64,000 bases of DNA, from contig CAJCIP010000011.1 of the NCBI GenBank assembly GCA_903970445.1, forward strand, positions 1-64,000, given 5' to 3'. The translations under genes and the position numbers were made by a program. A model generated the notes under the pieces. It searched no databases. It was given only the letters and a program-made list of their open reading frames with translations, and was not told where the DNA came from. This document shows, one piece after another, positions 14,495 through 50,172 of the stretch (positions are counted from its first letter, which is position 1; every line of letters starts with the position of its first letter). The DNA comes from Verrucomicrobia bacterium Tous-C9LFEB. GTDB lineage: Bacteria > Acidobacteriota > Terriglobia > Terriglobales > Acidobacteriaceae.

Positions 14495-16489
14495 CTATGG
14501 CTTATTCGTGAGGATTGTCTTACCGCCCGAATCACCAAAATCTACGACAGGACCAAACGCGCCGAGGTCCTGTTTCCGCTGTTGCGGATGGTAGGTAAGA
14601 AGGAAGACACGCTTCGATCCTGCCCAAATCCTGTGAAGGTCGGCGTCGTTCAGAAACACCTTTGGTGCGTCTGGCCAGAAGCTGCCAAACCACGGACCAT
14701 TGACATGACCGTTCACGAGAAGCACCTGCTGTCCTGTGTAGAAGAGCAGTGTTGAACCTGCCGTCAGCTCACCGTCAACCACCATGAGATCGCCCGGCTT
14801 GCGGGCACGATCCACCGCTAAGGCAAGTCCCTTGGAACCCAGTATGGGATAGAAGCGGACCAGACCCTCGTGAGCGGCCAGCAAGACGCCCGTCATGCTG
14901 CAAGCTACGAGCAAGTTGGCTGCGTGGGTCTTGCCTCTTCGGCGCAACAGATGCGATAGGGGTCCGAGGCACAGCATGCATATGGAAACGACCGCAAGCG
15001 GCCCGCGAAAGAAGCCCATGGCCTCTCCTTTGAGATCAAACACGTGGCCGAGCGATAGATTGTAAAGATCAGGATTGGTGCTGAGGACCTTATTCAAGTC
15101 AGCGCCGGGCTGAGGCGCCGGCGATGTGACAGCTAGATATCCGCAGATCAAAGCAATGCATGTGCCGAAGGGTACGAGGAAGTACATCGAGCCCCGAAGC
15201 GCTTGTGCGGGTAACAAGCTGGGCCTGCATGCGCTATGAGTCAAACCACTCTGGCGATCTGCTGCGGCCAGCAATCCGCCCACCAGCAGAGCTAAAGCAG
15301 GCAGCGCGGGCAGATGGTAGTACTCCTGGCGCGACGAGAGCGTGAAGAAGCCGAGGATGATTCCAGCCCATAGCAGGAGAGTCAGTGCGGCTTCGCTGCT
15401 GCCAGTCTTAATGCCAGCCGCAGTCTTGGCCGCCAACCACGTGCCGCCGGAACGAAGCTCCTTCACGGCATTCACCAACGCCGCAGGCAGGAATGCGGTC
15501 CAGGGCAGCAGCCAAAGCACAAGCAGTAGCCAGAAAAGCGGTATGGGAACCTGACCGTAATCGTGAGGTATTCGTTTTCCGAGGAATCGGGCAATGTGCT
15601 CGTTGTAGAGGTAGAACCAACTCCATCCTGCATGAGCCGGAAGACCTACTCCGGCCGGCATCGCGATCGGTGGATTTCGCAACGCAGCGAGGAAATGCCA
15701 GGGAGCCGCAACCAGCAGGAAGGCAGTAGTAGCGGCGATTCGCGGGAGCTGCCAGAGCGTTCTCGTGCGGCGCTTGCATACCAGGTACAGAACGACGAAA
15801 GCAAACGGAAACACGACGCCGATGAAGCCCTTCGTGAGCAGGCTTAGCGCAAGCGTGGCGCCGAAAGCAGCGCCAGGCCACTGGGAAGACTTTTGCTGCT
15901 CCACGCGTTCGAGACAAACCAGGAACAAATGCACGGACAGCGTCATCCACAACGCGATAAGGATGTCGGGGATGTAGAAGCGAGTGTAAAGATACGGACC
16001 GATGGATGTTGCAATCGCAATCGCCGCGTAGAGACCTCCACGATCCGGAGCGTGCATCGGCGATGCGCACCGAAACAGTCTTACGCCAAGCGCATATACC
16101 GCTACCAGCAGCGCCAGAACACCGAGTGCGAGAGGTAGTCGTGCGGCCCAATCATGAATGCCAAAGACGCGCATGGAGGCTGCGGCTATCCAATACATCA
16201 ACGGGGGCTTGTCGAAGAATCTGATGCCGTCGACAGTAGGCGTCACAAAGTCGTGACGGCTAAGCATTTCACGCGCTATTTGGATGTAAACCGAATCGAC
16301 ATCATCCAACAGGCCTGGGCTGAAGAGCCCTCCAATGTCCAACACACCCCACAGGCAGAAGAGAATGGACAGGGAAGTCCAACTCCATTCTGGGTTCGCG
16401 ACGACAGCGTCAGTGTTGGAATTGCCTTGCGTCAAAATCTTCGTTCTTCGCCCGCATGTTATCGTCTTCGACTTTGATTGGGTTGTCAC
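14495..16489 (-). CDS. GT39-type membrane glycosyltransferase (ArnT/PMT family), copy 2 of a coupled pair
   Basis: A 664-residue polytopic protein with about 11-13 helices. The first extracytoplasmic loop after TM1 carries the ArnT/PMT signature (LDDVDSVYIQIAREMLSRHD ... FFDKPPLMYW). A soluble C-terminal domain (about 560-664) follows. Such enzymes take a sugar from a polyprenyl-phosphate donor and transfer it to lipid A, protein or another envelope acceptor. The ATG overlaps the TGA of the preceding gene (ATGA), so translation is coupled. It is related to its upstream partner over the whole length, which points to tandem duplication. Neither donor nor acceptor is known. Confidence 0.87.
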   Translation of the reverse strand: MTTQSKSKTITCGRRTKILTQGNSNTDAVVANPEWSWTSLSILFCLWGVLDIGGLFSPGLLDDVDSVYIQIAREMLSRHDFVTPTVDGIRFFDKPPLMYWIAAASMRVFGIHDWAARLPLALGVLALLVAVYALGVRLFRCASPMHAPDRGGLYAAIAIATSIGPYLYTRFYIPDILIALWMTLSVHLFLVCLERVEQQKSSQWPGAAFGATLALSLLTKGFIGVVFPFAFVVLYLVCKRRTRTLWQLPRIAATTAFLLVAAPWHFLAALRNPPIAMPAGVGLPAHAGWSWFYLYNEHIARFLGKRIPHDYGQVPIPLFWLLLVLWLLPWTAFLPAALVNAVKELRSGGTWLAAKTAAGIKTGSSEAALTLLLWAGIILGFFTLSSRQEYYHLPALPALALLVGGLLAAADRQSGLTHSACRPSLLPAQALRGSMYFLVPFGTCIALICGYLAVTSPAPQPGADLNKVLSTNPDLYNLSLGHVFDLKGEAMGFFRGPLAVVSICMLCLGPLSHLLRRRGKTHAANLLVACSMTGVLLAAHEGLVRFYPILGSKGLALAVDRARKPGDLMVVDGELTAGSTLLFYTGQQVLLVNGHVNGPWFGSFWPDAPKVFLNDADLHRIWAGSKRVFLLTYHPQQRKQDLGAFGPVVDFGDSGGKTILTNKP

Positions 16490-34439: not shown

Positions 34440-35828
34440 CTAAGCGCTTACTAATTCAGAGGCGTGCGTGTGAACGATATCAGCATGCGTGAATCGCATC
34501 TTGATGCCGTTTTTCGGTCGCAGGATGACCATGGCGCGCTCTTCGATCTCCTGGCCGGGTGACAGTTCAAAATCATAACGTCGGAGGATCATGCTCAGAA
34601 TCATGAGGATCTGTAGCATCGCATATTGATTGCCGATGCAGACTCGCGGGCCTCCGCCGAATGGCATATACGTAAACGGCGTACGCTGCTTCTCATTTTC
34701 CTTGACGAAGCGTTCAGGGCGAAACTGCTCCGGGTCGCCCCAAGCGTGTCGCGCGTGATGCGCGCCGTAGACATACACGATTACCATCGACCCGGCGGGG
34801 ATCACGACATCGCCCACACGATCTTCTTCTACAGCCATGCGGTCAATCATCCAGAACGGGGGATAGAGCCGCAGCGCTTCCTGAATGATCTGTGTGGTGA
34901 ACGGAAACTTCATAACGTCGGCGTGGCTCAAAGGAGCATCGCCGAGCACAGCATTAAACTCCTCGCGCACCCTGAGCAGATGTTCCGGGCGAGTGCTCAA
35001 GAGGTAGAGAAGCCACGATAGACCGTTCGACGAGGTCTCGTGTCCAGCGACCAGGAGTTGCATGCTTTCGCTAAGCACCATGGCATCGCTCATGCCTTCG
35101 CCGTCGGTGTAGCGGGCGTCCATCAGGCTTTGCAGCAAATCACTGCCGGGTGCCTGATGCCTACGAGCCTTGATGTACTCCAGCAGCACGTTGTCCGCCT
35201 GGGCGCGCATGTCTTCATGCTTCTTCAACTCACCGGACACCGCGAACCACGGGTTCAAATACGGCTGCAGTGTTTGCCGCACGATGAACTCTTGCACCGT
35301 GCAAATGGTGTCGCTCACGAGGTCAATGTCTTCGCGCTTCAGCTTTGCTCCGAAGAGGGAACGCGCGACCATCGCGAAGGTCATCTCCATAAGTTGCGGA
35401 TAAATATCGACGGGGCCTTCCTCAATCCGGCGATCAAACTCGAGCAGCGATTCTGCCAGTGAGTCCTGCATGATCGCGGAGAGAGCATCAAGCTGCTTGC
35501 GGTCGAAACCCTTTTGGATGAGCCGCCGCTGATTGCGCCATGGCTCACCTTCGGTAGTAAGGAGGCCTTTGCCGAGGAAATGGCCCATCCGTTTTACCTG
35601 AATCTCGGATTTGCGGTAGTTCTCGGCGTTCGTCTTCAACACGTGCTGAATCACGGCGGGATCTATTGTGACAATGGCTTCTTTCAGACCACCAAGATAG
35701 AACCGGAAAGTGCTGCCGAGGAGGCCCGAGTAGGCGGACAGAACCTTGATGGGATTCCGTGCCAGAGCGGGCGAATCCGTAAACGAGCGGAACCGCGAGA
35801 CGCCTGGGATGGATGCTGACAACGTCAC
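34440..35828 (-). CDS. Cytochrome P450
   Basis: A 462-residue P450. The oxygen-binding I-helix is LLVAGHETSSNGL, the ExxR motif is EALRLYPP, and the heme loop is FGGGPRVCIGN with the axial thiolate at Cys397. The start is GTG 35828. The general type resembles fatty-acid hydroxylases or desaturating P450s (CYP102 heme domain, CYP4, CYP110), with no fused reductase, so it needs a separate ferredoxin or reductase. It follows the desaturase gene by 101 bases on the same strand, and both face the FAAL-ACP-reductase gene. I infer oxidation of a fatty acyl chain held on the carrier or lipid. Confidence 0.94.
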   Translation of the reverse strand: MTLSASIPGVSRFRSFTDSPALARNPIKVLSAYSGLLGSTFRFYLGGLKEAIVTIDPAVIQHVLKTNAENYRKSEIQVKRMGHFLGKGLLTTEGEPWRNQRRLIQKGFDRKQLDALSAIMQDSLAESLLEFDRRIEEGPVDIYPQLMEMTFAMVARSLFGAKLKREDIDLVSDTICTVQEFIVRQTLQPYLNPWFAVSGELKKHEDMRAQADNVLLEYIKARRHQAPGSDLLQSLMDARYTDGEGMSDAMVLSESMQLLVAGHETSSNGLSWLLYLLSTRPEHLLRVREEFNAVLGDAPLSHADVMKFPFTTQIIQEALRLYPPFWMIDRMAVEEDRVGDVVIPAGSMVIVYVYGAHHARHAWGDPEQFRPERFVKENEKQRTPFTYMPFGGGPRVCIGNQYAMLQILMILSMILRRYDFELSPGQEIEERAMVILRPKNGIKMRFTHADIVHTHASELVSA

Positions 35829-35929
35829 ACCTCGCAGCAGCTTCGTCTACTTCGGCTGCCCGCAACAACACATTTAGTTTTACAGTCGCGCGCGGACACT
35901 GAATAAGGAACTCTCGAACGCCGTCCCAA

Positions 35930-37087
35930 TCATGCCCACGTTCCATTACCTAATTGTTTCAGAAGTACCAGGTGGTGCCAGACAGCGCGCCTCATCGTAG
36001 GGTGCTCTCTGTAGGGCACTCCGAACTCGGATGCAGTATCCCTAACGATCGCGGTCAGCGAGGCGTAATGGGTGTGGCATACGAACGGGCACAGGTGGTG
36101 CACCACATGATGATTGAGGCCACCCGTCAACCAGCCTACCGTGGGTTTCGTCGTGGCGTAGTCCGCGGTCGTTGCGAAAATGTGGTACACCCCGTTTTCG
36201 AACTCGTTGCGGCCCTCTGGAAAGTACGTGCTGTCTACCGTATGTGTCGTTTGAAAAACCAGCGCCACGCTGAGTCCCACGACAAGGTGAACGAGCAAGA
36301 ACGCTCCGGCTACCAACACGATGGGTTTGCCCAGAAGAAGTACCGGAAGCGCGAGCATGTAGGTAAAGTAAAACGCTTTACCAGCAAAAAGAATCACGTA
36401 TTCACGTAAGCGGTGATTCGTTTTCTTCAAGTAATCATGCTTGGGAAAAAAGAAGCATTCAAAGTCTCGGACGAAAACATAATCCAACGAGAAGATTGCG
36501 TACAGGAACAAAGCGTACACGTGCTGAAAGCGCTGCATGGGACGCAGTGGCTCATGTGGCGTAAACCGAAGCAGGCCACGACCCGTCAAAGCATCATCCT
36601 CACCATGAACGTTCACGCAGGAATGGTGGCCGCGATGATGCAGGATTCGCCACATGTACGAGCTGATCCCGCAAAGGTCGAATACATAATTAAGCGCCTT
36701 GTTGATGGAGGCCGTCGAGGAGATCGCGTTGTGATTGCTATCGTGTGCAATGTTCAGCAGAAGAAATGTTTGTGCCAGTCCGCCCACCAGATAAAGAGCA
36801 AGGAACCATTTTGCACTGGGGCGGAAGGCGTAGGTCGCAGCCCAACTGCCGGCGAGAACAGCGATTCCAACCCCAATCTTCACCCACATCGCGAAGTTAG
36901 CTTTTGGAGAGAGCTTCTGTTCACTGAAATACTTATCGAGCCGTCGGCGGAGCACTTTGGGAAAAGAAGGATCACCGGAGGCGCCGGTCGTTTCCGCTGC
37001 ATAGGTGTGAGGGACCAGATCCTCCACAAACCGGTCTGGCGTAACAACTGCGGCATCGAGCGGTGGAGTCATCAACTGGGCGGTCAC
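35930..37087 (-). CDS. Membrane fatty acid desaturase
   Basis: A 385-residue FA_desaturase-family protein with four to six helices and three His boxes: H115-DSN-H119, H150-HRG-HH155 and H326-HVV-HH331, enough for a di-iron centre. An N-terminal soluble segment precedes TM1. Such enzymes introduce a double bond, a second unsaturation or an acetylenic bond, or hydroxylate a lipid- or carrier-bound acyl chain. The start is GTG 37087. Divergent 466 bases away is the FAAL-ACP-reductase gene. The regiochemistry cannot be read from sequence. Confidence 0.92.
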   Translation of the reverse strand: MTAQLMTPPLDAAVVTPDRFVEDLVPHTYAAETTGASGDPSFPKVLRRRLDKYFSEQKLSPKANFAMWVKIGVGIAVLAGSWAATYAFRPSAKWFLALYLVGGLAQTFLLLNIAHDSNHNAISSTASINKALNYVFDLCGISSYMWRILHHRGHHSCVNVHGEDDALTGRGLLRFTPHEPLRPMQRFQHVYALFLYAIFSLDYVFVRDFECFFFPKHDYLKKTNHRLREYVILFAGKAFYFTYMLALPVLLLGKPIVLVAGAFLLVHLVVGLSVALVFQTTHTVDSTYFPEGRNEFENGVYHIFATTADYATTKPTVGWLTGGLNHHVVHHLCPFVCHTHYASLTAIVRDTASEFGVPYREHPTMRRAVWHHLVLLKQLGNGTWA

Positions 37088-37553
37088 GATGGTCTCCGCG
37101 AACTGTTATATGTTGCGCTAAGCCAACCGGAGTCCAAGTCTCCGATGTCTAAGTTGTGCTCAGCACAAGCGCTGCTTCAATGCTGATCGTAGCTTGGAAG
37201 CGCGACTCAAGCAAGGTGTCACGCGATCAACACCTTCTGATTTCCTAAGGCACAGGTAACTCCAACCGTCTCTGCTAGCATATGCGAATACTCACATACG
37301 ATTGCAGCGTCACAATTGCGACCGAAAGCTATAAACCTTCCGGACAACACGACTTGGCTCGTTGGCAGGTGTTAGAGAGCAACATGTCGTACCTTCGGTG
37401 TTCCGCCAAGGAGTCAACTTCGCACGGAGGGAACCACATCCTGATCTATTTTCCTCAGGAAAGAACACGAGAGCGCCGCAAACAATGAGATGCTCCACGA
37501 CCTTCCATCAGGCTTCCCGATCCAAACTTTCAAAGGGGCTTTGCTGAACCTTT
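37088..37553. other. Long intergenic region between the desaturase and FAAL genes
   Basis: 466 bases between divergent start codons. Short open frames occur but have no credible start sites or sequence features. CATATGCGAATACTCACATACG-type repetition near 37280 and a TATAAA at 37330 are possible promoter parts. This is the natural place for control of the whole lipid cluster. I see no RNA gene or clear operator. Confidence 0.4.
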
Positions 37554-40500
37554 ATGGCGTCGATTTTAGAAGAACTTGACCGCCTGGGCGAGGAGCATCC
37601 ACATAAGCTCCTGTTTTCCTATCTGGACCTCAATGGCAACGCCCTGGAAAGCTACACGTACGCGTCTTTCGTGTCGCGAACAAAGGCAATCGCAGGTCAC
37701 CTGCTGGAGGACAGACGCTTTGCTTACGGCGACCGGCTCCTTTTGGCGTACCCGCCCGGGCTGGAGATGATCTGCGCGTTCTACGGATGTGTGCGAGCAG
37801 GCCTCATTCCGGTTCCAGCTTATCCGCCAAGCTCAAGGGGATTCCAAAGCGCGCTGTACAAAATGGTGCACATCGCCAGAGATTGCCAGGCTGCCGGAGT
37901 TCTCACCAGCAGCGAGTATCACGCATCGCTGAAAACCAATCTGGCACGGAGCGGTGTAGCGGCCTCCGGTGTAGATGTGGACTACATTTCTGCTCTTCCA
38001 TGGATCGTTACGGAAACGTTCGAGCATGGAACGCTGCATGAGACGTTCCCCACGCCTGGGGACATTCTCTTCCTTCAGTACACCTCCGGCTCCACGATGG
38101 AGCCTAAGGGTGTGATGGTCACGCACGAGAACATCCTGCGGACAGCGCCTCTCGTGATCGACCACATGTCGCCCGTTGTTGTTTCTTGGTTGCCACAGTA
38201 CCACGACATGGGTCTGATCGGCTGCTATCTCTATCCGGCATTGCGAGGAGGAACGACGTACGGTTTTTCTCCGACAGATTTCATACAGCGTCCGGTGTTG
38301 TGGTTCGACGCGATGAGTACATACAAGGCGACCGCGACAGCCGCGCCGAACTTCGCGTACGAATACTGCTTGCGGGCCGGGCGTATCTCGAAGGAGAACC
38401 TGGTGCAGTGTGACCTGAGTGCGCTGCGGGTGCTGATGGTCGCAGCTGAGCCGGTGAAGGCAGAAACGTACACCCGCTTTCTTGAAGCGTTCCAGCCATA
38501 CGGATTGAAGGCAGAGACCTTCTACGCGGCCTACGGCCTTGCAGAGAACACGTTGGCTGTTTCCATGCGTGGACGCAACATCATTTCGGTACATAAAAAT
38601 GCCTTGGCGATGGGCAGAGTTCGCCTCGCCGCGGAAGCTTCCGAAATTGCGGCCTCCACAAAGTTGGTGAGTTGCGGCAAGGTCCTCCCGGGCATAGACG
38701 TAAGGATCGTCGAGCCTGAGCGCCACAATGTCCTGAACGATGGCAGCATTGGCGAAATATGGATCGCAGGCTCGGGCAAGTGCGTCGGCTATTGGAACAA
38801 TCCCCAGCTGACGCTGAAGCAGTTTCGAGCGAGGCTTGTAGACGACACGCCCTACGACGATGGTTTTCTCCGGACCGGTGACATGGGTTTCTTCCATGGC
38901 GGCGAGTTGTTCGTGTGCGGCCGCATTAAGGACATGATTATCCTGCGTGGCCAGAACTACTATCCTCAGGACATCGAAGGCGTTGTGGAGCGGTCATCAC
39001 CGCTCATTCGAGCGCACTGTGTCGCTGCTTTTCAGATTCATGAAGAGGCCGATCCCGCTTTGGCGATTGTGGCCGAAGTGAAGAATCCCAATCAGCTGCC
39101 TGATGCGCGAAAGATCGCGCAGGCCGTGCGTAACTTCCTCAATGTTGAAGTCGCGCTAATCTCGTTTATCGCTCCGCGCGCCATTCCGCGCACAAGCTCC
39201 GGCAAAATCATGCGCCACAAAGCGAAACAGATGTGGATGGCTGGTGACTTCAAGGTGCTGAATGAGTTCTCGCGAGAGAAAGATGCGGGTGCTTCGGGCG
39301 TGAATTCTGAAAGACTGACTGCCTTTGATGAAGTGAAGGCCCGCTACAACCTCACCGGCAACGAGTCCTACAACCTTGTCGAAGCGGGTCTCGATTCGCT
39401 CGACCTCGTGCTTTTTATGCACGAGCTAAAAGAACTGCTGAAAGACAAGGGCGCCGACGTACTGGCCCGGCAAGTAGACATTGGTGTGATTCAGCGCGTC
39501 AGTGTGGCTCAGCTTTTTCAACTCGCCGAGCAGTTGGAGAGTGCGCCAGAAGAAGCACTAGAGCACCTCCGTCTTGCGCTTCAGGCCTTCCGCGAGGAGC
39601 AGCGCTCGTCCGAGCGAGCAATGATGAGTAACGACCGGACGCTTGTGTTTGATCCTCCGGCGCCGGCTCCTGTCCCAAATCTCCCAGTCCCGCACAACGT
39701 GCTCCTTACGGGCGGTACGGGATTCATCGGACCCTTTTTGATGAAGAGTCTGCTGGAACAGACACGCGCGAAAATCTATGTGCTTGTCCGGGCATCCGAC
39801 GACGAAGGAGGCAAGAAGCGCCTTCGCGGTGCGATGGAGTCCATGGGATCGTGCAGCCAATCTCTGATGCAGATGTTCGAGTCGCGGGTAACGCCAATAT
39901 GTGGCGACCTAGGACAGCCAAGCCTTGGTCTGGCTCCTGACGCGTGGGATTTTTTTGCAAATGAGATCGACACCGTCTTTCACAACGGTGCGACTGTGAA
40001 CTACCTCTTCAACTACGACCGGATGCGCGATGCCAACGTGATGGGAACGAACGAAGTATTGCGGATGGCTTTCGAGGGCCGTCCCAAAGAGTTCAACTAC
40101 GTTTCCACCACGTTTGTCTTCGGTTGGGCGGTGAAGGACGTGCTGTGGGAAACGGACTTCAATGAAAATCTCGATCTACTCGACTTCGGTTACAGCCAGA
40201 CCAAGTGGGTAGCGGAGCAGGTCGTTGCGGATGCTCGCAGCAAAGGTCTCTCTACGCGGATCTTTCGTCCGGCGCTCGTAAGCCCATCCGTAAGCGGCGG
40301 AGGCAACAACTTTGACATTGCCGTGCGGCTCGTCGCGTTCATGGTGAACCACGGCATAGGTGTTGACGCATTGAATCAGGTGAGTTTCGTTCCAGCGGAC
40401 ATTGTTGCAAATAACATCGTGGCGATTTCAACCACGACAGGCACCGCAAACAAGACGTACCACATCGTGCGCGATGACTATGCAAACATGATCGACATCA

Positions 40501-40835
40501 CCAACCTCATCACCCGTTCGACGGGGCGCGAATTCGATGTGTTTCCGGTTCATGATTTCGTGCCGGAGTTGATCCGCCGCTGCCGTAAAGAAGATCTACT
40601 GTTTCCGTTGTTGGATTTCCTCGTAGGCTCGGTCGATAACATTACATCGATGGAGTTCAAGCGTTACGACAACTCCACTTACCAGGCTGCACGCGATGCC
40701 TCTGCGTGGGGACAACCCGATCCGACGCTTGAAGACACAGTGAACGGGATCCTAAAGTTCATGCATCGCAAAGGCATTATCGCGGTTGCGCCCCGAGAGA
40801 TCGACGCCGCCGTTTCGGTGGTTCCAGCGATTTAA
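37554..40835 (+). CDS. FAAL - acyl carrier - thioester reductase megaenzyme (carboxylic-acid-reductase-like)
   Basis: A 1093-residue multidomain protein. Residues 1-560 are an adenylating domain of the fatty acyl-AMP ligase type: P-loop Thr177 in QYTSGSTMEPKGVMVTHEN, RTGDMGF, and C-terminal catalytic Lys551 in RTSSGKIMR. Residues about 585-655 are a phosphopantetheine carrier with Ser615 (VEAGLDSLDLVL). Residues about 715-1050 are a thioester reductase: GGTGFIG from 720 and YSQTK (Tyr880, Lys884). It would activate a fatty acid with ATP, load it on the carrier, and release it with NAD(P)H as aldehyde or alcohol. Unlike most such proteins, there are no condensing domains. Its neighbours (desaturase, P450, MMPL) could modify the bound chain or carry the product out. 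Confidence 0.92.
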   Translation: MASILEELDRLGEEHPHKLLFSYLDLNGNALESYTYASFVSRTKAIAGHLLEDRRFAYGDRLLLAYPPGLEMICAFYGCVRAGLIPVPAYPPSSRGFQSALYKMVHIARDCQAAGVLTSSEYHASLKTNLARSGVAASGVDVDYISALPWIVTETFEHGTLHETFPTPGDILFLQYTSGSTMEPKGVMVTHENILRTAPLVIDHMSPVVVSWLPQYHDMGLIGCYLYPALRGGTTYGFSPTDFIQRPVLWFDAMSTYKATATAAPNFAYEYCLRAGRISKENLVQCDLSALRVLMVAAEPVKAETYTRFLEAFQPYGLKAETFYAAYGLAENTLAVSMRGRNIISVHKNALAMGRVRLAAEASEIAASTKLVSCGKVLPGIDVRIVEPERHNVLNDGSIGEIWIAGSGKCVGYWNNPQLTLKQFRARLVDDTPYDDGFLRTGDMGFFHGGELFVCGRIKDMIILRGQNYYPQDIEGVVERSSPLIRAHCVAAFQIHEEADPALAIVAEVKNPNQLPDARKIAQAVRNFLNVEVALISFIAPRAIPRTSSGKIMRHKAKQMWMAGDFKVLNEFSREKDAGASGVNSERLTAFDEVKARYNLTGNESYNLVEAGLDSLDLVLFMHELKELLKDKGADVLARQVDIGVIQRVSVAQLFQLAEQLESAPEEALEHLRLALQAFREEQRSSERAMMSNDRTLVFDPPAPAPVPNLPVPHNVLLTGGTGFIGPFLMKSLLEQTRAKIYVLVRASDDEGGKKRLRGAMESMGSCSQSLMQMFESRVTPICGDLGQPSLGLAPDAWDFFANEIDTVFHNGATVNYLFNYDRMRDANVMGTNEVLRMAFEGRPKEFNYVSTTFVFGWAVKDVLWETDFNENLDLLDFGYSQTKWVAEQVVADARSKGLSTRIFRPALVSPSVSGGGNNFDIAVRLVAFMVNHGIGVDALNQVSFVPADIVANNIVAISTTTGTANKTYHIVRDDYANMIDITNLITRSTGREFDVFPVHDFVPELIRRCRKEDLLFPLLDFLVGSVDNITSMEFKRYDNSTYQAARDASAWGQPDPTLEDTVNGILKFMHRKGIIAVAPREIDAAVSVVPAI

Positions 40836-40857
40836 CGAGGCATCCTTCGTCCAAGCA

Positions 40858-41655
40858 CTATGGTGCGCGCTGAAAGATAAGCTTCTCATTGAAGTGCTGG
40901 CCCGTTTCCAGTTCTCCAGAGCTGATGAGCGTCATGGTCTTGCCGTCGGGAGCCACGACCCAGCGATCCTTCTGTGTCACTTGCTGGTCGCGCCGGTAGA
41001 CCGCGTCGACTGTGTGACTGTCGACCTGGGTGAGTTGCACGGTATCGTTGCGTGAGTTTTTCAGGTCGTACGCTTTGCCATCGAAGTGGGCTGTGTAACT
41101 GTAATCGCTGCTAAAGCGCACGCCGTCACCTCTCGTAGCTTCGATTGTGAGCAAGTTTCCCTGCTTCATGCGAGTCTTGCTGACGTCCTGTGTCCAGTCG
41201 CCTGCAAAGGGATCGGGCCCGGCTTTCGCGGACGCGTTTCGAGTCCATACGGTGACCTGGTCAGGATGCCCGGGACGCGATGTGGTAAGTGTAAGTTCGC
41301 TGCCGTCTTTTGACAGGGCGTTATGAATTGTGGCGACGATGGCCCCATTCTTCTTCTCGATGACCTCAACTTGCTTCTTGCTGATCCTGTGCAGCTGAAT
41401 CTGATCGAACACGGGATTTGCTACGACAGGCAGTTGTTTACCGTCTGTCTTTGCCATGAAGTCGAGATGCGCCTCGCCCGTCATAAGCACATGCACCGTG
41501 CCGTTGGCAGAAACGATGCTGAGCTTGTCGGCAGGCTCAAGGGAAGACTGAGCGGAAACCAGCGTCCACGATCCAGCGCGCGGATCTGCCGCCAACGCGG
41601 AGATGGTCATGAATCCGAACAGGGCAGCAAGTGTAAATCGGGTAATCACAAGCAT
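40858..41655 (-). CDS. Exported protein of unknown function beside the FAAL gene
   Basis: About 265 residues from ATG 41655, with AGGAG 9 bases upstream; a longer frame to 42129 runs over another gene's start and lacks such a site. The signal peptide is MLVITRFTLAALFGFMTISA, cut near ALAADP. The mature protein is mostly beta with two similar halves (ADPRAGSWTLVSAQSSLEPA ... PDPFAGDWTQDVSKTRMKQG), each near 120 residues; this looks like a lipocalin- or calycin-like tandem. It converges with the FAAL gene 22 bases away and is divergent from the MMPL exporter. A periplasmic role in carrying or sensing a lipid is possible. No family is recognised. Confidence 0.8.
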   Translation of the reverse strand: MLVITRFTLAALFGFMTISALAADPRAGSWTLVSAQSSLEPADKLSIVSANGTVHVLMTGEAHLDFMAKTDGKQLPVVANPVFDQIQLHRISKKQVEVIEKKNGAIVATIHNALSKDGSELTLTTSRPGHPDQVTVWTRNASAKAGPDPFAGDWTQDVSKTRMKQGNLLTIEATRGDGVRFSSDYSYTAHFDGKAYDLKNSRNDTVQLTQVDSHTVDAVYRRDQQVTQKDRWVVAPDGKTMTLISSGELETGQHFNEKLIFQRAP

Positions 41656-41808
41656 AGTAAGTGGCTCCTGAGCCGAACACGGCGTCCACTGCTGTAGATG
41701 CATATTGGAACAAGTGAGAGCAGGCCTCAGGTACCCTAAAGACGTGATGACTGGCGGAGAAAATCTTGGAGCCATCGTGACAGGGCTGAGTGGGCCGCGT
41801 CTTTGCCG

Positions 41809-44064
41809 ATGATCAAAAGCTTTATACAATCCCCGCGCTTCTGGGCTGCTGCCGTTGTTCTCGCCGGTGTCCTTGCACTGCTTCCTTTTTCCTTCCACTC
41901 CGAACGCCACTTGGAGACTGCAACGCGGGTAGAGGGAAGCAACGCGCAGGCGGTTGTGCAGGAATTGAAGACGCGCTTTCATTCCCCCTTTGTAGATCAG
42001 GTCGTCTTGGTCATCGGAGGCCTGCCGTCGGCTGAAACAGACGAAGGTGCGGCCGCGCTCACCGCCATCGTGAACGGAATGAAGGATCAACCCGGCGTCT
42101 CCGGCGTGGTGTCCTATCTGGATTTGCATGACTCGATCTTTCTGGGCAAGGGCGGCGGAACCTACGTGGTCCTAGGGCTTTCTTCGCCCAATGGATCTGT
42201 TGAATCGCTGGTACCCGGCCTTTCTTCCCGAGCAAAGGCGCTCGCACAGGATCTTCGAGTTCGCTACCCGAAGGTGAATGTCGAATTGACTGGCGAGATC
42301 CCACTCAACTTTGATATTCGCAAAGCCAGTGCCGACGAGGTACAGCACAGTGAAAGCCTCGTCATTCCAGCGACACTTGTGCTTCTGTTACTCGCGTTCG
42401 GTAGCTTTGTCGCGGCGCTTATTCCCCTGGCGGTGGGCCAACTCGCAATTGCAACGACGCTCGCGATTGCCTCCCTGATCGCTACGCGTTTTCACCTGTC
42501 CATTCTGGTGCAAAACCTCGCGACGATGTTGGGGCTAGGCCTAGGCATTGACTACACGCTGCTAATGGTCAGCCGCTTTCGAGAGGCCATCGCCACAGGC
42601 CACGATGGCCCTTCAGCGTCGCTGATCGCGTCGAAGCGCGCCGGACGGACGCTGCTCATTTCAGCGTCCACCTTGGCCATTGGATTTGTTGCGCTGATCA
42701 CCGTGCCGATCAGCGAGATCCGGTCCATCGGGGTTGCAGGATGCCTGGTTGCAGCGACGAGTGTTTTGATGGCCAACTCGCTGGTGCCTGCGGTGCTAGG
42801 GATATTAGGCCGGCACATCGATGCAGGTCGAATGCCATTCTTGCCGCAGATGAATGTGCATCGTTCGGAACGCACCGGAACGCGGTGGCGTCACTGGGGG
42901 CAGAGAATCGTTGCCCATCCCTGGCTGGCCTTGGTGCTCGCAGGCGTTCCGCTGCTGGCGCTTGCGTGGCAGGCAACGCATCTGGATACAAGCTTGCCGA
43001 AAGGCGATTGGCTGCCGAAAGCTGCCGAGTCTGTTCACGCACTACACACGCTGGAGCAGATGGATCGAGCCGGGATCGTGCAATCGATGCGCGTGATCAT
43101 TGAGCTTCCAAACGATTCTATTTCGCAGAGTGACGCCGGCTGGGCCGCGATTGATCACGCGAGCAAAACGCTGGCGAGCGATCCTCGCTGTGAGCGTGTT
43201 ATCTCCATGACGACTCTCGCGAGCGGTGACCGATCGTTCCTTACCGACGTTTCCCGTGATACGCGGCGCACCTTCCTAAGTGGCGATGGACATGCTGCGC
43301 TGCTGGAGGTTCTTCCCAAGACGTCTATCTCTCTCCGTGAGCAGGTGGACTGGGTACGGGAGCTGCGCAAGGTAGGCGCACCTGCGCTGACCGGGAGTCC
43401 GCGATCTACAATGCTCGTCGGCGGCATTCCAGCGCTAAACGGTGATTACGAGCTGATCATTGAGAAAAGGTTTTTGCCAGTGACCGGGCTTGTAGTGCTG
43501 GGCACGCTGCTTGCATTGCTGGCGGGGTTCCGCTCAGCCGTTGTCGCGATCAAGGCGATTGTGTTGAACCTCGTTTCCGTGGCGGCAGCGTTCGGTGCTC
43601 TGGTGCTGGTTTTTCAGAAAGGGTATGGCAGCGGCCTGATTGGCATCCCTGTCGGAACAGGAAGTGTTTTTCCGCTTGTGCCAATCGTCACGTTTGCTAT
43701 CGTCTTCGGACTGAGCATGGACTATGAGGTTTTCCTCGTGGCTCGCGTGTTGGAGGCGAGAAAAAGTGGATTGAGTGAAGGTGATGCGATCGCTGAAGCA
43801 CTCGCACGAACAGCTGGTCTGATCACTAGCGCCGCCGCGATCATGATCGTCGTATTCGCCGCTTTCACCTTTGGGAACTTCCTCGTCGTGAAGATGATTG
43901 GCTTTACGTTAGCGGTCGCCGTGCTCATCGATGCGACACTTGTACGTATGGTTATCGGTCCCGCGCTCTTGTGTCTGGCCGGCGACTGGAACTGGTGGCC
44001 GGCAGGTCTAGGCGAGGCTACTCCGCAAGAGGCTGTGTGTGAGGTTTCGTCAAAGCCGCGCTAG
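41809..44064 (+). CDS. MMPL/RND-family lipid exporter
   Basis: A 751-residue MMPL protein from ATG 41809 (an in-frame TTG at 41803 precedes it). It shows two repeats of one helix, a periplasmic domain, and five helices. The proton-relay motifs are LGLGIDYTLLMVSRFREA in the first half and FGLSMDYEVFLVARVLEA in the second. MMPL transporters export lipids or lipid-like natural products, and their genes commonly accompany FAAL genes. Here one lies beside the FAAL-ACP-reductase, which supports export of the same product. The substrate is not known. Confidence 0.92.
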   Translation: MIKSFIQSPRFWAAAVVLAGVLALLPFSFHSERHLETATRVEGSNAQAVVQELKTRFHSPFVDQVVLVIGGLPSAETDEGAAALTAIVNGMKDQPGVSGVVSYLDLHDSIFLGKGGGTYVVLGLSSPNGSVESLVPGLSSRAKALAQDLRVRYPKVNVELTGEIPLNFDIRKASADEVQHSESLVIPATLVLLLLAFGSFVAALIPLAVGQLAIATTLAIASLIATRFHLSILVQNLATMLGLGLGIDYTLLMVSRFREAIATGHDGPSASLIASKRAGRTLLISASTLAIGFVALITVPISEIRSIGVAGCLVAATSVLMANSLVPAVLGILGRHIDAGRMPFLPQMNVHRSERTGTRWRHWGQRIVAHPWLALVLAGVPLLALAWQATHLDTSLPKGDWLPKAAESVHALHTLEQMDRAGIVQSMRVIIELPNDSISQSDAGWAAIDHASKTLASDPRCERVISMTTLASGDRSFLTDVSRDTRRTFLSGDGHAALLEVLPKTSISLREQVDWVRELRKVGAPALTGSPRSTMLVGGIPALNGDYELIIEKRFLPVTGLVVLGTLLALLAGFRSAVVAIKAIVLNLVSVAAAFGALVLVFQKGYGSGLIGIPVGTGSVFPLVPIVTFAIVFGLSMDYEVFLVARVLEARKSGLSEGDAIAEALARTAGLITSAAAIMIVVFAAFTFGNFLVVKMIGFTLAVAVLIDATLVRMVIGPALLCLAGDWNWWPAGLGEATPQEAVCEVSSKPR

Positions 44065-44558: not shown

Positions 44559-44571
<13 letters not shown>

Positions 44572-46532
44572 CTTGTTCCTGCGTTGCTCAGCAGCTTGTT
44601 AGCTGGCGAGGGACTCGCGAGACGCCGTGATGGCAGTGCGTCCGCGGAGGGAAGCAATCGTGGGAGTGCCGTCCGGCCAAATTCAAGCACTCGCCGCCCC
44701 TCGAAGAAATCCAACATGCGGATGGTAGCTTTGCCGTCACCGTACGGATTGGTGATGGAGCCGTGGCGCACAGAAAGCTTGCGCGCGAGGGTCCGAATGC
44801 CTGCCTCTATGCTTCTTGCGTCCGTTCCCGTAAGCGTTGTGATTCCGGCGCGAAGGGCTTCTGGCCGTTCGGTAGCTTGCTTCATCAGAAGCACGGGCTT
44901 TCCAAGTGATGGGGCTTCCTCCTGAACATCCTCGAGGTCGGTAAGTACCAGATCGCATTCACTCAGATTGCGGAGAAACTGTTCGTACTTCACGGGACCG
45001 CAGAGGAGCACGCCTGGAACCCTGTCCAGCAAATCGTTGACCAGCTTCAACCCTCGTGCGTCCGCATGTACCGGCCAAACGAATTGGTAAAGACCGGGGA
45101 CCGAAGTTGCGAGATGACGGATGGCGCGGCACAAATCCGCCAAGTGATCTGCCAAGGTTTCGGGCATTTCGGCGACGACAAATACGTGCACGACGCCGGA
45201 GGACCGAACCGGAGCAGAACCAAGCGGCAAGGCCAGGAGCGCGCACGTCTCGTGCATCGCGTCGACACTCGTGTTGCCGGTAACAACAATGCTTTCTTCA
45301 GGGACACCTTCCCGCACAAGGCCTTCCTTACTCAACGACGTTTCCGCGAAATGCACTGAAGCGAAAAGGCTGGCAATGAGTCGATGGAGTGTCTCCGGAT
45401 GCGATTCGTCTCTTGTATGTACGTCTCGAAAAGGCGTCCCACCATCGACGCGCGCCACAGGAATCTGCGCGTAGTATGCGGCTATCGATGCCATGGCGGC
45501 CGTCGCGCTATCGCCTTGTACAACGACCCACTCAGGCTTCACTTCCGCTAAGATCTTTCCGAAGCCTTTGATCATGCGTGTTCTGGTTTCTTCGAGACTT
45601 TCCTGACGGCCGGCAACGTTCAATTCCATGTCGACCGTAACCCCAAGAATCTGTAAAGCCTCTCTTGCCCAGTCCGGCCGTTCTCCAGCAACGCAGACCT
45701 GAACCCCTGCGCCGACAGCACCGGGCTGAGCACGCAGGGTGCGAACCAGTGGCGCCAGGCTACGACTTTCCGATGTGGAGCCAACCACGATCAGGTATTT
45801 GCAGCGTGCAGCGGTATTGTGCCACTGCTGGACGACCGTATGAAGCATCGCGAATCGCCCGTTGGTGCGCGGATGTGCAGTCTGAACTTCTTCGTAGCCC
45901 TGCCTCGTGGCCACGTATGCTGCGCCCGAGTCCTCCGCAGGTATCTCGGTTGCAGGTTCCTGGAAGGTGCTTCGGGTCGCAGGCCATGGCTGTTGCTCCT
46001 GATCCTCAGCGATGGAGTTTGCAGCAACAGGCTCGGGCTTCTCAGGCAACTCGAGGGCCGGCGGGACTGCGTGGGTGTGGAGAACCCCATCAGACGATTC
46101 ACTTTGTGGCGTTGGAAGTTCGTCAGCCTGAACCGGAGCATGCGCATCATTTGGATCGTCCTTAGAGGCCGATGGCCCGTCTGCACGCATCCGGTCCGTA
46201 CGTATCTTGTGCGTGTATATAAGCTGCCTGTTGCGTGCGGCCGCCCAGTGCGCAGATGAGTCTCTTCGATCCGCTCCGTCAATCTTGGGGCTTTCGCCTG
46301 CGGCCGTACGCGCTTCGGAGGAGGCCTGTGACTCTAAAGCGAGTTCCTTCCGCTTGGATGGTTCAGCCTCGAAGAGGCGTGCCTTTGCAGGGACATCAAC
46401 AGCTAATTTGTCGCCTTTAGGCACTCTCTCCGAAAGTGAATCTTGCGTTGCCGGTCGCGGATTTACTTTCGCTGCTGTCAGTGAAGCGGAGCGACGCGTT
46501 CCAGAAAGCAGTTTGAAGATGCGTGACCACAT
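44559..46532 (-). CDS. Degenerate UDP-GlcNAc 2-epimerase (WecB)-like protein with long N-terminal extension
   Basis: A 657-residue protein. Residues 1 to about 240 are low-complexity and charged, without known domain. From KYLIVVGSTSESRSLAPLV to the end it follows the Epimerase_2/WecB fold: EWVVVQGDSATAAMASIAAY, IVVTGNTSVDAMHE, VQEEAPSLGKPVLLMKQATE, RPEAL and NPYGDGKA. Key WecB positions are altered: GTRPE is GSTSE, VEAG is VDGG, the catalytic HR(R)E region is replaced by AEMPE, and DSGG is DLED. It is therefore probably not an ordinary epimerase; it might be a regulatory pseudoenzyme or act on another nucleotide sugar. It lies upstream of tRNA-Val and follows the dTDP-rhamnose operon on the same strand, 50 bases after rfbD. 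Confidence 0.8.
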
Positions 46533-46582: not shown

Positions 46583-47554
46583 TTAGCTGCTTCGTCTTCT
46601 GCCCTTGGCGAGCAGTTGTGCCATTACAAGGGATGTCGATTGCTGCCATGCTGGCAAAGCATACCCGAAGACCTCGGAGAGTCGGCTGCAATCAAGTCTC
46701 GAGTTCTGAGGTCTTCTGGCGGCCGTGGGGTACTCAGAGGTAGAGATGGGCAGCAGGGTGGCGAGCCGTCGACCTGGTTCAGCAATCGTGGTTAAGCGAA
46801 GAAACTCACGCGCAAAGCCGAACCAGCTCGTTTCGCCTGAGGAGGCAGCGTTGTAGATGCCCTTCTTTTCTCCGATGACCTGCGATCTTGCAGTGCCCGT
46901 TGAATCGGCAAGATTCTCCATTTGTGAGATCAGAGAAACCACGAGGTTCGCCAAATCAAACGACCATGTCGGCGCTCCAAATTGGTCGGCAACCACCTTT
47001 AGTTCTGCCCGCTCTTCTGCCAGACGCAAGAGCGTGAGCAAAAAATTCTTTCCACGGGCTCCATAAACCCAACTTGTGCGCAGGATGAGGTGCGCCGCAC
47101 CCGTCGACGCCAAGGCTTGCTCGCCCAAAAGCTTGGTCTTCCCGTAGACGCCAAGCGGGCCGGTAGGATCGCTTTCTATCCATGGCTGGTCGCCCGTACC
47201 GTCATAAACATAGTCCGTTGAAAAATGGATGACGGGTGCATCGAGCCTTGCAGCCTCCTCGCCTAAGATTCGCGGTGCGGAGGCATTGATCGCTTCCGCC
47301 AGAGCAGGCTGGCTTTCAGCCTTGTCGACCGCAGTATAGGCTGCTGGGTTTATGATCCAGTGCGGCCTAGCGTCACGAACGAAAGCGCGAATAGCTTCTA
47401 TGTTGGTCAGGTCGAGCTCAGCCCTTGTTGGCGCAATCACCTGCGCAAAAGATTGCAGCAGCGGAAGCAGGTCGCCACCCACTTGCCCTGTAACCCCCGT
47501 TAGCAGTATCCGAAGGTTCTCTCGTTTGCGGGGTACAGGCCGACGCTGTGTCAC
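46583..47554 (-). CDS. rfbD: dTDP-4-dehydrorhamnose reductase
   Basis: A 323-residue NADP-dependent reductase; an N-terminal extension of about 12 residues precedes the fold. It has LLTGVTGQVGGDLL (GxxGxxG), the RmlD-type THR/YxxxK GVYGKTKLLGEQAL and FSTDYVYDG. It catalyses the last step of dTDP-L-rhamnose synthesis. Its ATG overlaps the stop of rfbC (ATGA). It is the last rfb gene before the WecB-like gene. Confidence 0.95.
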   Translation of the reverse strand: MTQRRPVPRKRENLRILLTGVTGQVGGDLLPLLQSFAQVIAPTRAELDLTNIEAIRAFVRDARPHWIINPAAYTAVDKAESQPALAEAINASAPRILGEEAARLDAPVIHFSTDYVYDGTGDQPWIESDPTGPLGVYGKTKLLGEQALASTGAAHLILRTSWVYGARGKNFLLTLLRLAEERAELKVVADQFGAPTWSFDLANLVVSLISQMENLADSTGTARSQVIGEKKGIYNAASSGETSWFGFAREFLRLTTIAEPGRRLATLLPISTSEYPTAARRPQNSRLDCSRLSEVFGYALPAWQQSTSLVMAQLLAKGRRRSS

Positions 47555-48123
47555 TCGTTTGCTTGTCCGGTGTACGGCGGTGGCAGTTCTGCTTCGAAGA
47601 ACGAAGTACCGCGCGCATCCTTGGCGGACACCATCGGATCGCCAATATTATCCAACGGCCACTCGATGCGTAGCGAAGGATCGTTCCAACAAATGCAGCG
47701 CTCGCCTTCTGGAAAATAGAAGCCTGTGGTTTTGTAGAGGACGCTTGCAGTTTCGGAGAGAACAACGAAGCCGTGTCCGAATCCTTCCGGAATCCACAGC
47801 AGCTGCAACTCTTCTGCGCGGAGGTGAAATCCGGCCCACTTACCAAAGTCCGGCGATCCATGCCGGAGATCGACGGCGACATCCCAGATATATCCATCAA
47901 GAACCCTGACGAGTTTTCCCTGGGGCTGACCGAGTTGATAGTGCAAGCCACGCAGTACACCGCGCCGGGAAAAGGATTGGTTCTCTTGGACGAATTCTGC
48001 CGGAAGCCGCCCTGTCGCGAAGTCGCGAGCCTGAAAAGTCTCGGCAAACCAACCTCGCTCGTCACCATGGCGTGCCGGTTGGATGAGCTTTACGTCGTTT
48101 AGCGGAGTGTCGATGATTTCCAT
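47551..48123 (-). CDS. rfbC: dTDP-4-dehydrorhamnose 3,5-epimerase
   Basis: A 190-residue cupin epimerase. Signatures are RHGDERGWFAETFQARDF, FVQENQSFSRRGVLRGLHYQ (catalytic His in LRGLHYQ) and LWIPEGFGHGFVVLSE. The usual catalytic Tyr follows in VLYKTTGFY. It inverts C3 and C5 of dTDP-4-keto-6-deoxyglucose. It is coupled to rfbD by a 4-base overlap and lies 34 bases after rfbA. Confidence 0.95.
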   Translation of the reverse strand: MEIIDTPLNDVKLIQPARHGDERGWFAETFQARDFATGRLPAEFVQENQSFSRRGVLRGLHYQLGQPQGKLVRVLDGYIWDVAVDLRHGSPDFGKWAGFHLRAEELQLLWIPEGFGHGFVVLSETASVLYKTTGFYFPEGERCICWNDPSLRIEWPLDNIGDPMVSAKDARGTSFFEAELPPPYTGQANE

Positions 48124-48157
48124 AGTGACTCAGGTCGGCGCACCGACTCAGCGGAGT

Positions 48158-49042
48158 TTACAACCCAGCGGGAACGACCTCGTCGAGAATTCGGATCAGG
48201 TACTTTCCGTAGGAGCTTTTCGAAACTTTCGCTGCGAGCGCGGACAGTCGCGCCCGATCAATGTATCCGAGACGATAAGCGATCTCTTCAGGACATGCGA
48301 CTTTAAGGCCTTGCCTATGCTCAATGGTGGAAATAAACTGGGCGGCCTCCAGCAGCGAATCATGCGTGCCTGTATCCAGCCATGCCATGCCGCGGCCCAT
48401 CAACTGGCAGCGAAGCTGCCCTCGCTCCAAGTACCAGCGGTTTACATCAGTAATTTCAAGTTCGCCTCTCTCTGATGGCTGGAGGCCCTTGGCGATGTCT
48501 ACGACTTGGTTGTCATAGAAGTAAATCCCGGTCACTGCATAGCGAGAGCGCGGATTGAGCGGTTTTTCTTCCAACGACACCGCCCGCATGCTTGCATCAA
48601 ATTCAACCACGCCATAACGCTCCGGGTCCTGCACAGCGTAGGCAAACACGGTTGCCCCATCCTTTTCAGCCGCAGCAGAACCGACCAGCTTTGCAAAGTC
48701 ATGACCATAGAAGATGTTGTCCCCCAGGACGAGACAGCAACCTTCTCCCGCGAGGAAATCCTTACCAATAAGGAACGCCTGGGCAAGGCCATCAGGAGAA
48801 GGCTGAACAGCATACTGCAGCCGAATGCCCCAATCGCCTCCAGTGCCGAGAAGCTGCTCGAAACGCGGCGTGTCTTCCGGTGTAGAGATCAGCAGGATGT
48901 CCCTCACGCCTGCTAACAGCAATGCGGATAGAGGGTAGTAGATCATCGGCTTGTCATACACGGGAAGGAGTTGCTTGGAGATCGCCTGCGTAGTCGGATA
49001 AAGACGGGTGCCCGAGCCGCCGGCCAGGATGATGCCTTTCAT
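48158..49042 (-). CDS. rfbA: Glucose-1-phosphate thymidylyltransferase
   Basis: A 294-residue nucleotidyltransferase. The N-terminal motif is [20 protein letters not shown]; the active site is [28 protein letters not shown] is present. It makes dTDP-glucose from dTTP and glucose-1-phosphate, the entry to dTDP-L-rhamnose. Its ATG overlaps the rfbB stop (ATGA), so the two are translated together. Confidence 0.97.
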
Positions 49043-50172
49043 TTCGCACTCGCAGTAACTGTTGACCGTTCTGAAATAGCGCGGTCACCATAATTTGCAG
49101 ATACCCACTTCTGGTAAGAACCGGATGTAACTTCTTCCATCCATACCTGATTATCGAGATACCATTGCACCGTTTTGCGAAGACCTGAGGAGAAGGTTTC
49201 CTCGGCCTTCCATCCAAGCTCGCGTTCGAGCTTGCCGGCGTCAATGGCATACCGACGATCATGCCCAGGACGATCGTCAACAAAGCGGATGAGCTGTTGG
49301 TGTGGCCGGTACCGCGAGCCAGGAACCAACTCATCGAGCAGATCGCACAGGGTCAGCACGACGGTCAGATTAGTTTGCTGATTGCTTCCGCCCACGTTGT
49401 AGGTCTCGCCAGTGCGACCTGCTTTCAACACTGCTTCGATGGCGCGGCAATGATCAATTACATACAACCAGTCCCTCACTTGTTGACCGTCACCATAAAC
49501 GGGAAGCGGTTTTCCCGCGAGGGCGTTCACGATCATTAGAGGAAGCAGCTTTTCAGGAAATTGAAAGGGACCGTAGTTGTTGGAACAGTTTGTGATGATG
49601 GCGGGCATGCCATACGTATGCACCCAGGCCCGCACGAGGTGATCGCTCGCTGCCTTCGATGCGGCATAGGGTGAATTCGGTGCGAATGGCGTCTTCTCAT
49701 GAAAAGGCGGTTCGTCAGGAGCCAGCGTGCCGTAAACCTCGTCTGTGGAGACATGGAGGAAACGGAAGTGGCGCGCCTCGTGCGGGGGTAGGCTGCGAAA
49801 GTGTTCAAGAGACGCTTGCAGCATCGAGAATGTGCCTTCGATGTTCGTTTTAAGGAACGCTTCCGGACCCCGGATAGAACGGTCAACGTGGCTTTCAGCT
49901 GCGAAGTGCACCACAGCCCAAGGACGGTGTTCAAGCAGGAGCTCGCCGACCAACCCACGATCACAGATGTCGCCGTGTACGAGTATGTGATCGGGGTTTT
50001 CAAGTAGTGGCCCAAGATTTCCCAGATTGCCTGCGTACGTCAGAAGGTCGAGGTTTACGACCCGCCCTTTGCCGGACGCGATCCAGTTCAGCACGAAGTT
50101 GGAGCCGATGAAGCCGGCGCCTCCCGTGACCAAAATGCATGGACTGTTGCTGCTAATAGGGCTCTCCAACAC
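49039..50172 (-). CDS. rfbB: dTDP-glucose 4,6-dehydratase
   Basis: A 377-residue extended SDR starting at GTG 50172. It has [16 protein letters not shown], the [10 protein letters not shown] segment, the catalytic HVSTDEVYG (Thr-Asp-Glu) and [16 protein letters not shown] (YxxxK). It removes water from dTDP-glucose to give dTDP-4-keto-6-deoxyglucose. It is the first gene of the rfbB-A-C-D operon. A -10-like TATCCT is 7 bases before the start codon, so transcription may begin at the GTG. Confidence 0.96.

Follow-up and report, generated by a model that had tools for sequence, protein, structure and literature searches.

A conserved five-gene cluster of Terriglobales as a candidate pathway for an exported, oxidised fatty aldehyde or alcohol

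What would a soil bacterium make with a cytochrome P450, a desaturase and a fatty acyl-adenylate ligase (FAAL) encoded next to a lipid exporter? The question is raised by five adjacent genes at positions 34440-44064 of the window, i.e. the whole 64,000-nucleotide stretch of DNA analysed here, which lies on contig CAJCIP010000011.1 (C11) of the 3.68 Mb draft genome of Verrucomicrobia bacterium Tous-C9LFEB, a member of the Terriglobales (Acidobacteriota) by its GTDB lineage; all positions below refer to the window. Few bacteria are commoner in soil than the Acidobacteria, yet to our knowledge few of their lipid products have been described. We conclude, with a probability of about 0.6, that the cluster serves to produce and export an aldehyde or alcohol that derives from a fatty acid and carries extra oxidation. 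The P450, the desaturase-type enzyme and a FAAL-carrier-reductase protein would be its biosynthetic core, and an MMPL transporter and an exported protein the transport pair. The five genes had been described in an earlier note made from the sequence alone, and all were found where that note had placed them, with their catalytic motifs intact.

Sequence comparison strongly supports the view that the five genes belong together as one conserved unit. Co-conservation of the five families had been named beforehand as the test of the cluster, and the outcome is positive across 298 genomes of the order and 32 loci, with the reservation that the genomes are related and the presences are not independent events. 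FAAL orthologues (73-86% identity) occur in 40 of the 298 genomes, in eight cases as incomplete or split frames of draft assemblies, and desaturase orthologues in the identical 40, with none in the other 258 at E 1e-60. The P450 orthologues are found in these 40 genomes and in G295, the MMPL transporter at an identity of at least 66% in the same 40 plus G043 and G295, and the exported protein at no less than 50% in 39 of the 40 (G113 is without it) plus, again, G043 and G295. G295 is an 84%-complete draft in which the P450 gene lies on a different contig from the exporter pair. Gene order and strands are identical in 32 of the 32 loci where all five genes were found. Clustering of the open reading frames (ORFs) at 46 Terriglobales-type loci recovers the FAAL at 46, the P450 at 40, the desaturase at 39, the MMPL transporter at 38 and the exported protein at 35; genes not found there fall beyond contig ends, save the exported protein in locus L068. 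No widely recurring sixth family emerged among the 46 loci, many of which lie on short contigs with incomplete flanks; the next family, TonB-receptor-like, reaches 10. The nearest named carriers are an Edaphobacter metagenome-assembled genome and Bryocella elongata (Acidobacteriaceae), and cultured carriers include Granulicella, Edaphobacter lichenicola, Bryocella elongata and Terracidiphilus. A link to the membrane-spanning lipids of acidobacteria is at most conceivable, and the distribution speaks against a universal membrane lipid, because the cluster is patchy, being present in 10 of the 21 genomes of the window's own genus and in 7 of the 70 genera of the order.

The central protein (37554-40835, plus strand; 1093 residues) is composed of a FAAL domain (residues ~1-572), an acyl carrier with Ser615 and an NAD(P)H-dependent thioester reductase (~713-1045), with Pfam matches to AMP-binding (3.3e-61) and NAD_binding_4 (3.5e-58). 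A condensing domain, whether ketosynthase or condensation, was not found in the Pfam scan, and the predicted architecture of FAAL, carrier and thioester reductase without condensing domains is borne out by the Pfam and NCBIfam domains. The adenylation domain aligns over its full length with chains named Fatty Acyl-Adenylate Ligase, FadD32 or FadD23 at 227-238 bits (3pbk, 238.4; FadD32, 237.3; FadD23, 229.8). Its top solved chains are 7r7e (361.7 bits) and 3kxw (319.1 bits), which we take to be FAALs although they are named polyketide synthase and saframycin synthetase, respectively; the best 4-coumarate-CoA ligase chain reaches 85.9 bits. Judged by these scores, the domain is nearer to FAALs than to acyl-CoA ligases and is probably a FAAL, not a CoA ligase. 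There are 46 residues between YGLAE (327) and SCGKVLPG (373), a stretch that may span the FAAL-specific insertion, and the alignment with 7r7e runs without a large gap. The reductase scores 232.4 bits with TIGR01746, above the curated cut-off of 213.35, and its nearest solved structure is MxaA (183.5 bits). Throughout 75 aligned homologues, 42 Terriglobales-type and 33 others, the A10 lysine K551, the carrier serine S615 in its DSL-type motif and the reductase residues T853, Y880 and K884 are invariant. The draft genome holds one gene of the phosphopantetheinyl transferase (PPTase) superfamily, an ACPS-family member in a 138-residue frame of AcpS size (G000:C15:8939-9232); therefore, AcpS would have to serve the carrier domain of the FAAL protein.

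The two candidate oxidising enzymes are encoded upstream on the minus strand. The P450 (34440-35828; GTG start, 462 residues; Pfam p450 2.4e-83) carries the heme cysteine Cys397, an ExxR motif at 317-320 and the I-helix motif AGHETS at 261-266; the heme loop had been assigned to the right position, and Cys397 is conserved as C in 54 of 55 homologues and X in one. The desaturase-type enzyme (35930-37087; 385 residues) has the three expected His boxes, HDxxH (115-119), HxxxHH (150-155) and HxxHH (327-331), together with a Pfam match above cut-off (FA_desaturase, 1.2e-26) and a membrane di-iron predicted fold. H115, H155, H330 and H331 show no exception among 60 homologues, and H119, H150 and H154 are retained in 59. 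The predicted model (pLDDT 89.1) best matches two chains of the FtsHi motor complex (Z 21.6 and 20.6), followed by AlkB (Z 14.2) and SCD1 (Z 8.3); the AlkB and SCD1 matches, as well as the matches to fatty-acid-binding proteins (FABPs) given below, were drawn from Foldseek's own candidates, which leaves room for other folds. By its predicted fold, the protein is a membrane di-iron enzyme, either a desaturase or a hydroxylase. An apparent FAAL-P450 fusion in locus L128 was discarded, since its 1585-residue ORF is a shadow frame over the FAAL gene followed by the real P450.

The exported protein (40858-41655, minus strand) belongs to no Pfam family, and no lipocalin or FABP profile model matched it at E-values up to 10. 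It is an internal duplication, the halves of which align with each other at 22% over 103 residues (E 1e-7), and the GxW motif that opens each half is invariant in 34 of 34 aligned rows. The predicted model (pLDDT 90.5) consists almost entirely of strands. Alignment by VIA-align to FABPs, myelin P2 and NanoLuc yields Z values of ~13-14 (12.9-13.8) over 109-123 residues at 2.2-3.6 Å; the Foldseek E-values are weak, the best being 5e-4 with a DUF3598 protein. The predicted fold resembles that of FABPs (calycin-like), and we infer from this fold and from the gene company that the protein is a lipid carrier. Translation from the ATG at 41655 gives 265 residues with a signal-peptide-like N-terminus, MLVITRFTLAALFGFMTISALAADP, and this is probably the true start rather than position 42129 of the ORF list, because the longer frame would overlap the MMPL gene.

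The latter (41803-44064, plus strand; 753 residues; Pfam MMPL 5.4e-68) encodes an MMPL-family, RND-type lipid transporter, the translation of which may start at ATG 41809 instead of TTG 41803. Its best solved relative is MmpL3 (194.7 bits), and its score with the MmpL3 model NF052608 is 246.9 bits, well under the 1400-bit cut-off. Two Asp-Tyr pairs, D250/Y251 and D640/Y641, as known from MmpL3, are conserved in all 35 rows compared, one of which is the window. The MMPL and exported-protein genes stand beside the core in Terriglobales only, with no match in 34 loci of other phyla. We discarded the idea that they form a general pair, as there is no exported-protein gene beside the 8 inspected MMPL paralogues (of 14, at 54-59% identity).

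One lineage is without the biosynthetic core. Genome G043, 100% complete by tool estimate and assembled in 210 contigs, has no orthologue of the FAAL, desaturase or P450, and the exported-protein and MMPL genes are present and intact on one of its contigs, of 30 kb (L144, G043:C61, 665-4320). This contig is colinear with G170 (77-78% nucleotide identity) to either side of a G170 stretch of 8.65 kb that holds the P450, desaturase and FAAL genes plus one radical-SAM gene; G043 has 346 bp in its place. The simplest reading of this alignment is that the core was lost from G043 as one block, although it is possible that it was never inserted. In locus L092, the flank gene of G043 and G170 lies ~130 bp from the P450 gene, and the radical-SAM gene is not between them. 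The stricter statement that exactly three genes were lost is weakened, since the G170 comparison stretch also carries the radical-SAM gene.

The best reading of the sequences is that the product would be an unsaturated and/or hydroxylated fatty aldehyde or alcohol, arising from an ATP- and NAD(P)H-driven conversion. The FAAL domain would adenylate a free fatty acid with ATP and load it onto the fused carrier, which AcpS would have converted to the holo form. The chain could then receive a double bond, or alternatively a hydroxyl group, from the membrane di-iron enzyme and be hydroxylated by the P450, in either case while it is carrier-bound or after its release. The terminal reductase would free the chain with NAD(P)H as an aldehyde, and a second reduction would lead to the primary alcohol. 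Finally, the MMPL pump may take the product across the inner membrane, from where it may travel through the periplasm on the exported FABP-like protein. The earlier note had proposed much the same course. Its fatty acid loading and reductive release hold at the level of domain class and invariant catalytic residues, and its desaturated or hydroxylated target, the choice between aldehyde and alcohol, and the substrate are what we infer beyond them. Export, as a putative function, is supported by gene association, the conserved MMPL motifs and the FABP-like predicted fold.

Relatives in other phyla point in the same direction. Among the best 80 of 159 places matched by the FAAL-carrier-reductase, full-length relatives at 43-55% identity occur in seven phyla, namely Bacteroidota, Pseudomonadota (one Caulobacter), Gemmatimonadota, Planctomycetota, Verrucomicrobiota, Calditrichota and other Acidobacteriota. 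In 28 of the 34 other-phyla loci, the FAAL gene has a P450 gene, a desaturase gene or both beside it: a P450 in 20, spanning five phyla, a desaturase of one of the two main kinds in 20 (22 when the second desaturase is counted), and both a P450 and a main-kind desaturase in 12, all of them Bacteroidota. The desaturase of Saprospiraceae and relatives is of the same kind as that of the window (9 loci, 40-46% identity), and 11 Flavobacteriales-type loci carry a distinct desaturase clade with QxxHH as the third box. Further genes of Flavobacteriales-type loci encode a second desaturase and a membrane protein without a name. In quick-method trees of the three core proteins, which have some long branches, the Terriglobales rows form one group each with top SH-aLRT support. 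PPTase genes are found at 10 of the 34 loci, and sulfotransferases at 10, with L098 to be added by Pfam. Because sulfotransferases adjoin the same core enzymes, a product bearing a hydroxyl is suggested. We give even odds to the broader proposal that an as yet unnamed family of lipid pathways, built on the stand-alone FAAL-carrier-reductase, produces oxidised fatty aldehydes or alcohols that are finished differently from lineage to lineage. Taken jointly, this would comprise a P450 partner in five phyla and a membrane desaturase in Terriglobales and Bacteroidota. The finishing would consist of a dedicated MMPL pump with an exported FABP-like carrier for Terriglobales and of sulfation for Flavobacteriales, Verrucomicrobiota and Planctomycetota, whereas Gemmatimonadota and some other Acidobacteriota would use a short-chain dehydrogenase/reductase (SDR) with a flavin monooxygenase.

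Some loci are worth recording separately. The FAAL gene is accompanied by a P450 gene and a PPTase gene of its own in L111, L113, L114, L118, L120, L123-L126 and L129 (nine Bacteroidota and one Verrucomicrobiota), several of which also have a sulfotransferase, a second desaturase and an unnamed 250-residue membrane protein. SDR and flavin monooxygenase genes lie upstream of the FAAL gene in L107 and L117. A phylum-wide draw gave the FAAL at E 1e-150 in 14 of 297 genomes, five of them outside the order, and the seven FAAL copies of these five have no desaturase match and one P450 match alongside. Two Acidobacteriota outside the order, G429 (L138/L140) and G526 (L139/L141), hold two FAAL-carrier-reductase copies each, at 44-46% identity to the window; the four copies have no P450 or desaturase match nearby, and SDR genes occur at two.

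Several observations weigh against the proposed product or its export. The NCBIfam FAAL models score 311-349 bits, none above its own full-length cut-off, and PRK07768, named long-chain-fatty-acid--CoA ligase, is near them at 292 bits; the carrier domain is weak, with 15.0 bits for Pfam PP-binding and a cut-off of 20.8. The nearest solved relatives of the P450, a mixture of carotene hydroxylases, CYP4B1, CYP3A and BM3, are too diverse to indicate its substrate. For the desaturase, no relative among solved structures was found by sequence at E-values up to 1, and it may hydroxylate instead, because the hydroxylase AlkB is a better match to its predicted fold than SCD1 is. Neither a P450 nor a desaturase adjoins the FAAL in 6 of the 34 other-phyla loci, some of which are contig ends, and the desaturase stands beside it only in Terriglobales and Bacteroidota. 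Since two distinct desaturase clades are in use, the products of the clusters with HxxHH and QxxHH enzymes may differ. With regard to export, the residues of the FABP-like alignment are spread from 22 to 265, compatible with one barrel as well as two. More distant relatives of the exported protein (23-31%) are present in another 27 genomes that lack the cluster, and the pair is intact in G043 without the core; because of both, the exporter pair may transport something other than the product of the core.

Other destinations of the chain have to be considered. The modified fatty alcohol or aldehyde could be an envelope building block, incorporated into a wax ester, an ether lipid or an outer-membrane lipid, with the MMPL protein and the carrier delivering the finished lipid outward as MmpL3 does with trehalose monomycolate. 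It fits this idea that MmpL3, a lipid transporter, is the nearest solved structure, that the exported partner has a lipid-carrier-type predicted fold and that no outer-membrane channel family recurs alongside. However, the cluster has no recurring gene for an acyltransferase, a glycosyltransferase or an ether-forming enzyme, and the patchy presence within genus and order also counts against the idea; we regard this destination as doubtful. Much less probable is a hydrocarbon, formed when the reductase-made fatty aldehyde loses its carbonyl carbon through the P450 to leave an alkane or alkene. Insect CYP4G removes the aldehyde carbonyl carbon and yields a hydrocarbon in this way, and here a reductase of the aldehyde-forming type adjoins a P450 whose nearest solved relatives include CYP4B1. 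CYP4B1 differs from CYP4G, however, carotene hydroxylases score equally well, and the sulfotransferase at 10 of the 34 other-phyla loci would require a product with a hydroxyl group instead of a hydrocarbon.

An alkyne or polyyne pathway, in which the desaturase would act as an acetylenase on the carrier-bound chain as in JamABC, is likewise very unlikely. According to PMC8406139, the triad of FAAL, desaturase and carrier, which the cluster shares with the JamABC cassette and the polyyne clusters, serves as a screen for alkyne potential; polyyne clusters add two further desaturases, a thioesterase and a rubredoxin, and a P450 replaces the thioesterase and rubredoxin in 10 actinobacterial genomes. 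The two desaturases of the Flavobacteriales-type loci would also suit such a pathway. In the window, by contrast, the carrier is fused rather than free, release is through a reductase, and the five genes include one desaturase and additionally an MMPL transporter and a lipid-carrier-like protein. Neither two further desaturases nor a thioesterase or rubredoxin is found among the five genes, and none recurs in the 46 Terriglobales-type loci. Judged from gene content, the cluster is not a polyyne cluster by the features tested.

An exported, oxidised fatty aldehyde or alcohol, the product that we prefer, can also be set against systems with similar parts. The adenylation domain fits the FAALs of lipopeptide and polyketide pathways best; here, however, one carrier and a reductase follow directly, with no ketosynthase or condensation domain. 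Carboxylic acid reductases (CARs) share the three-part order of adenylation, carrier and reductase, and their chemistry, acid to aldehyde with ATP and NADPH, would be expected here as well, but the adenylation domain of the window protein is FAAL-type. The CAR model NF041592 reaches 129.8 bits against a cut-off of 1300, with its best stretch at 635-973, and CAR structures match best at ~695-941, i.e. the reductase. The comparison with known CARs that had been suggested at the outset thus places the protein outside them by the features tested. Its reductase domain is like the MxaA-type terminal thioester reductases, whereas here it is joined to a stand-alone FAAL-carrier protein. MmpL3 and the mycobacterial lipid exporters share the MMPL family and the Asp-Tyr pairs; the differences are an FABP-like gene partner and a score below the MmpL3 model cut-off.

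If the reading is correct, the bacterial FABP-like carrier and the MMPL exporter would constitute a route for periplasmic lipid transfer, and we know of no described periplasmic lipid route that pairs the two. If the related core elsewhere makes one lipid class, an undescribed metabolite would link soil and aquatic bacteria. A sharply bounded, repeatedly kept five-gene cassette, a core-less lineage and cultured carriers should make the product findable. Among the papers that searches of the PubMed Central literature listed, none describes this layout in its title or abstract opening, which is weak evidence because most subscription journals and all preprints are uncovered; no such cluster is named in the consulted parts of the antiSMASH table of PMC7074687.

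The divergent region between the desaturase and FAAL genes (37088-37553) contains a promoter-like conserved element at 37270-37283, CTCTGCTA..AT. The k-mer CTCTGCTA is present in 19 of 43 related intergenic regions, the window counted, while the highest count for any 8-mer in 20 mononucleotide shuffles is 8; the regions come from related rows, and thus the counts are not independent. The element could be a shared -10 box or an operator.

Two wider views of the locus were discarded. A plasmid-borne cassette was considered, and the single plasmid record that matches at E 1e-100 extends over no more than the FAAL domain, 52% of the query. A larger cluster was also considered, and the upstream MATE, sugar-porter and TonB genes and the downstream epimerase and dTDP-rhamnose genes are not among the recurring flank families. 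The radical-SAM gene of G170 (L064 5058-6155; PF04055, 4.1e-7) adjoins the P450 gene, and in G113 a relative at 49% is located immediately beyond the MMPL gene (L039 ~14540-15517); such a gene was not found beside the cluster in the remaining Terriglobales loci searched. Downstream of the cluster, 44559-46532 encodes a UDP-GlcNAc 2-epimerase (WecB-type) with a long N-terminal extension, the model match beginning at residue 245 of 657. Four genes in a row follow at 46583-50172, encoding RmlD, a dTDP-sugar isomerase (RmlC), a nucleotidyl transferase (RmlA) and a dTDP-glucose-dehydratase-like SDR (RmlB), with Pfam matches fitting a putative dTDP-rhamnose synthesis.

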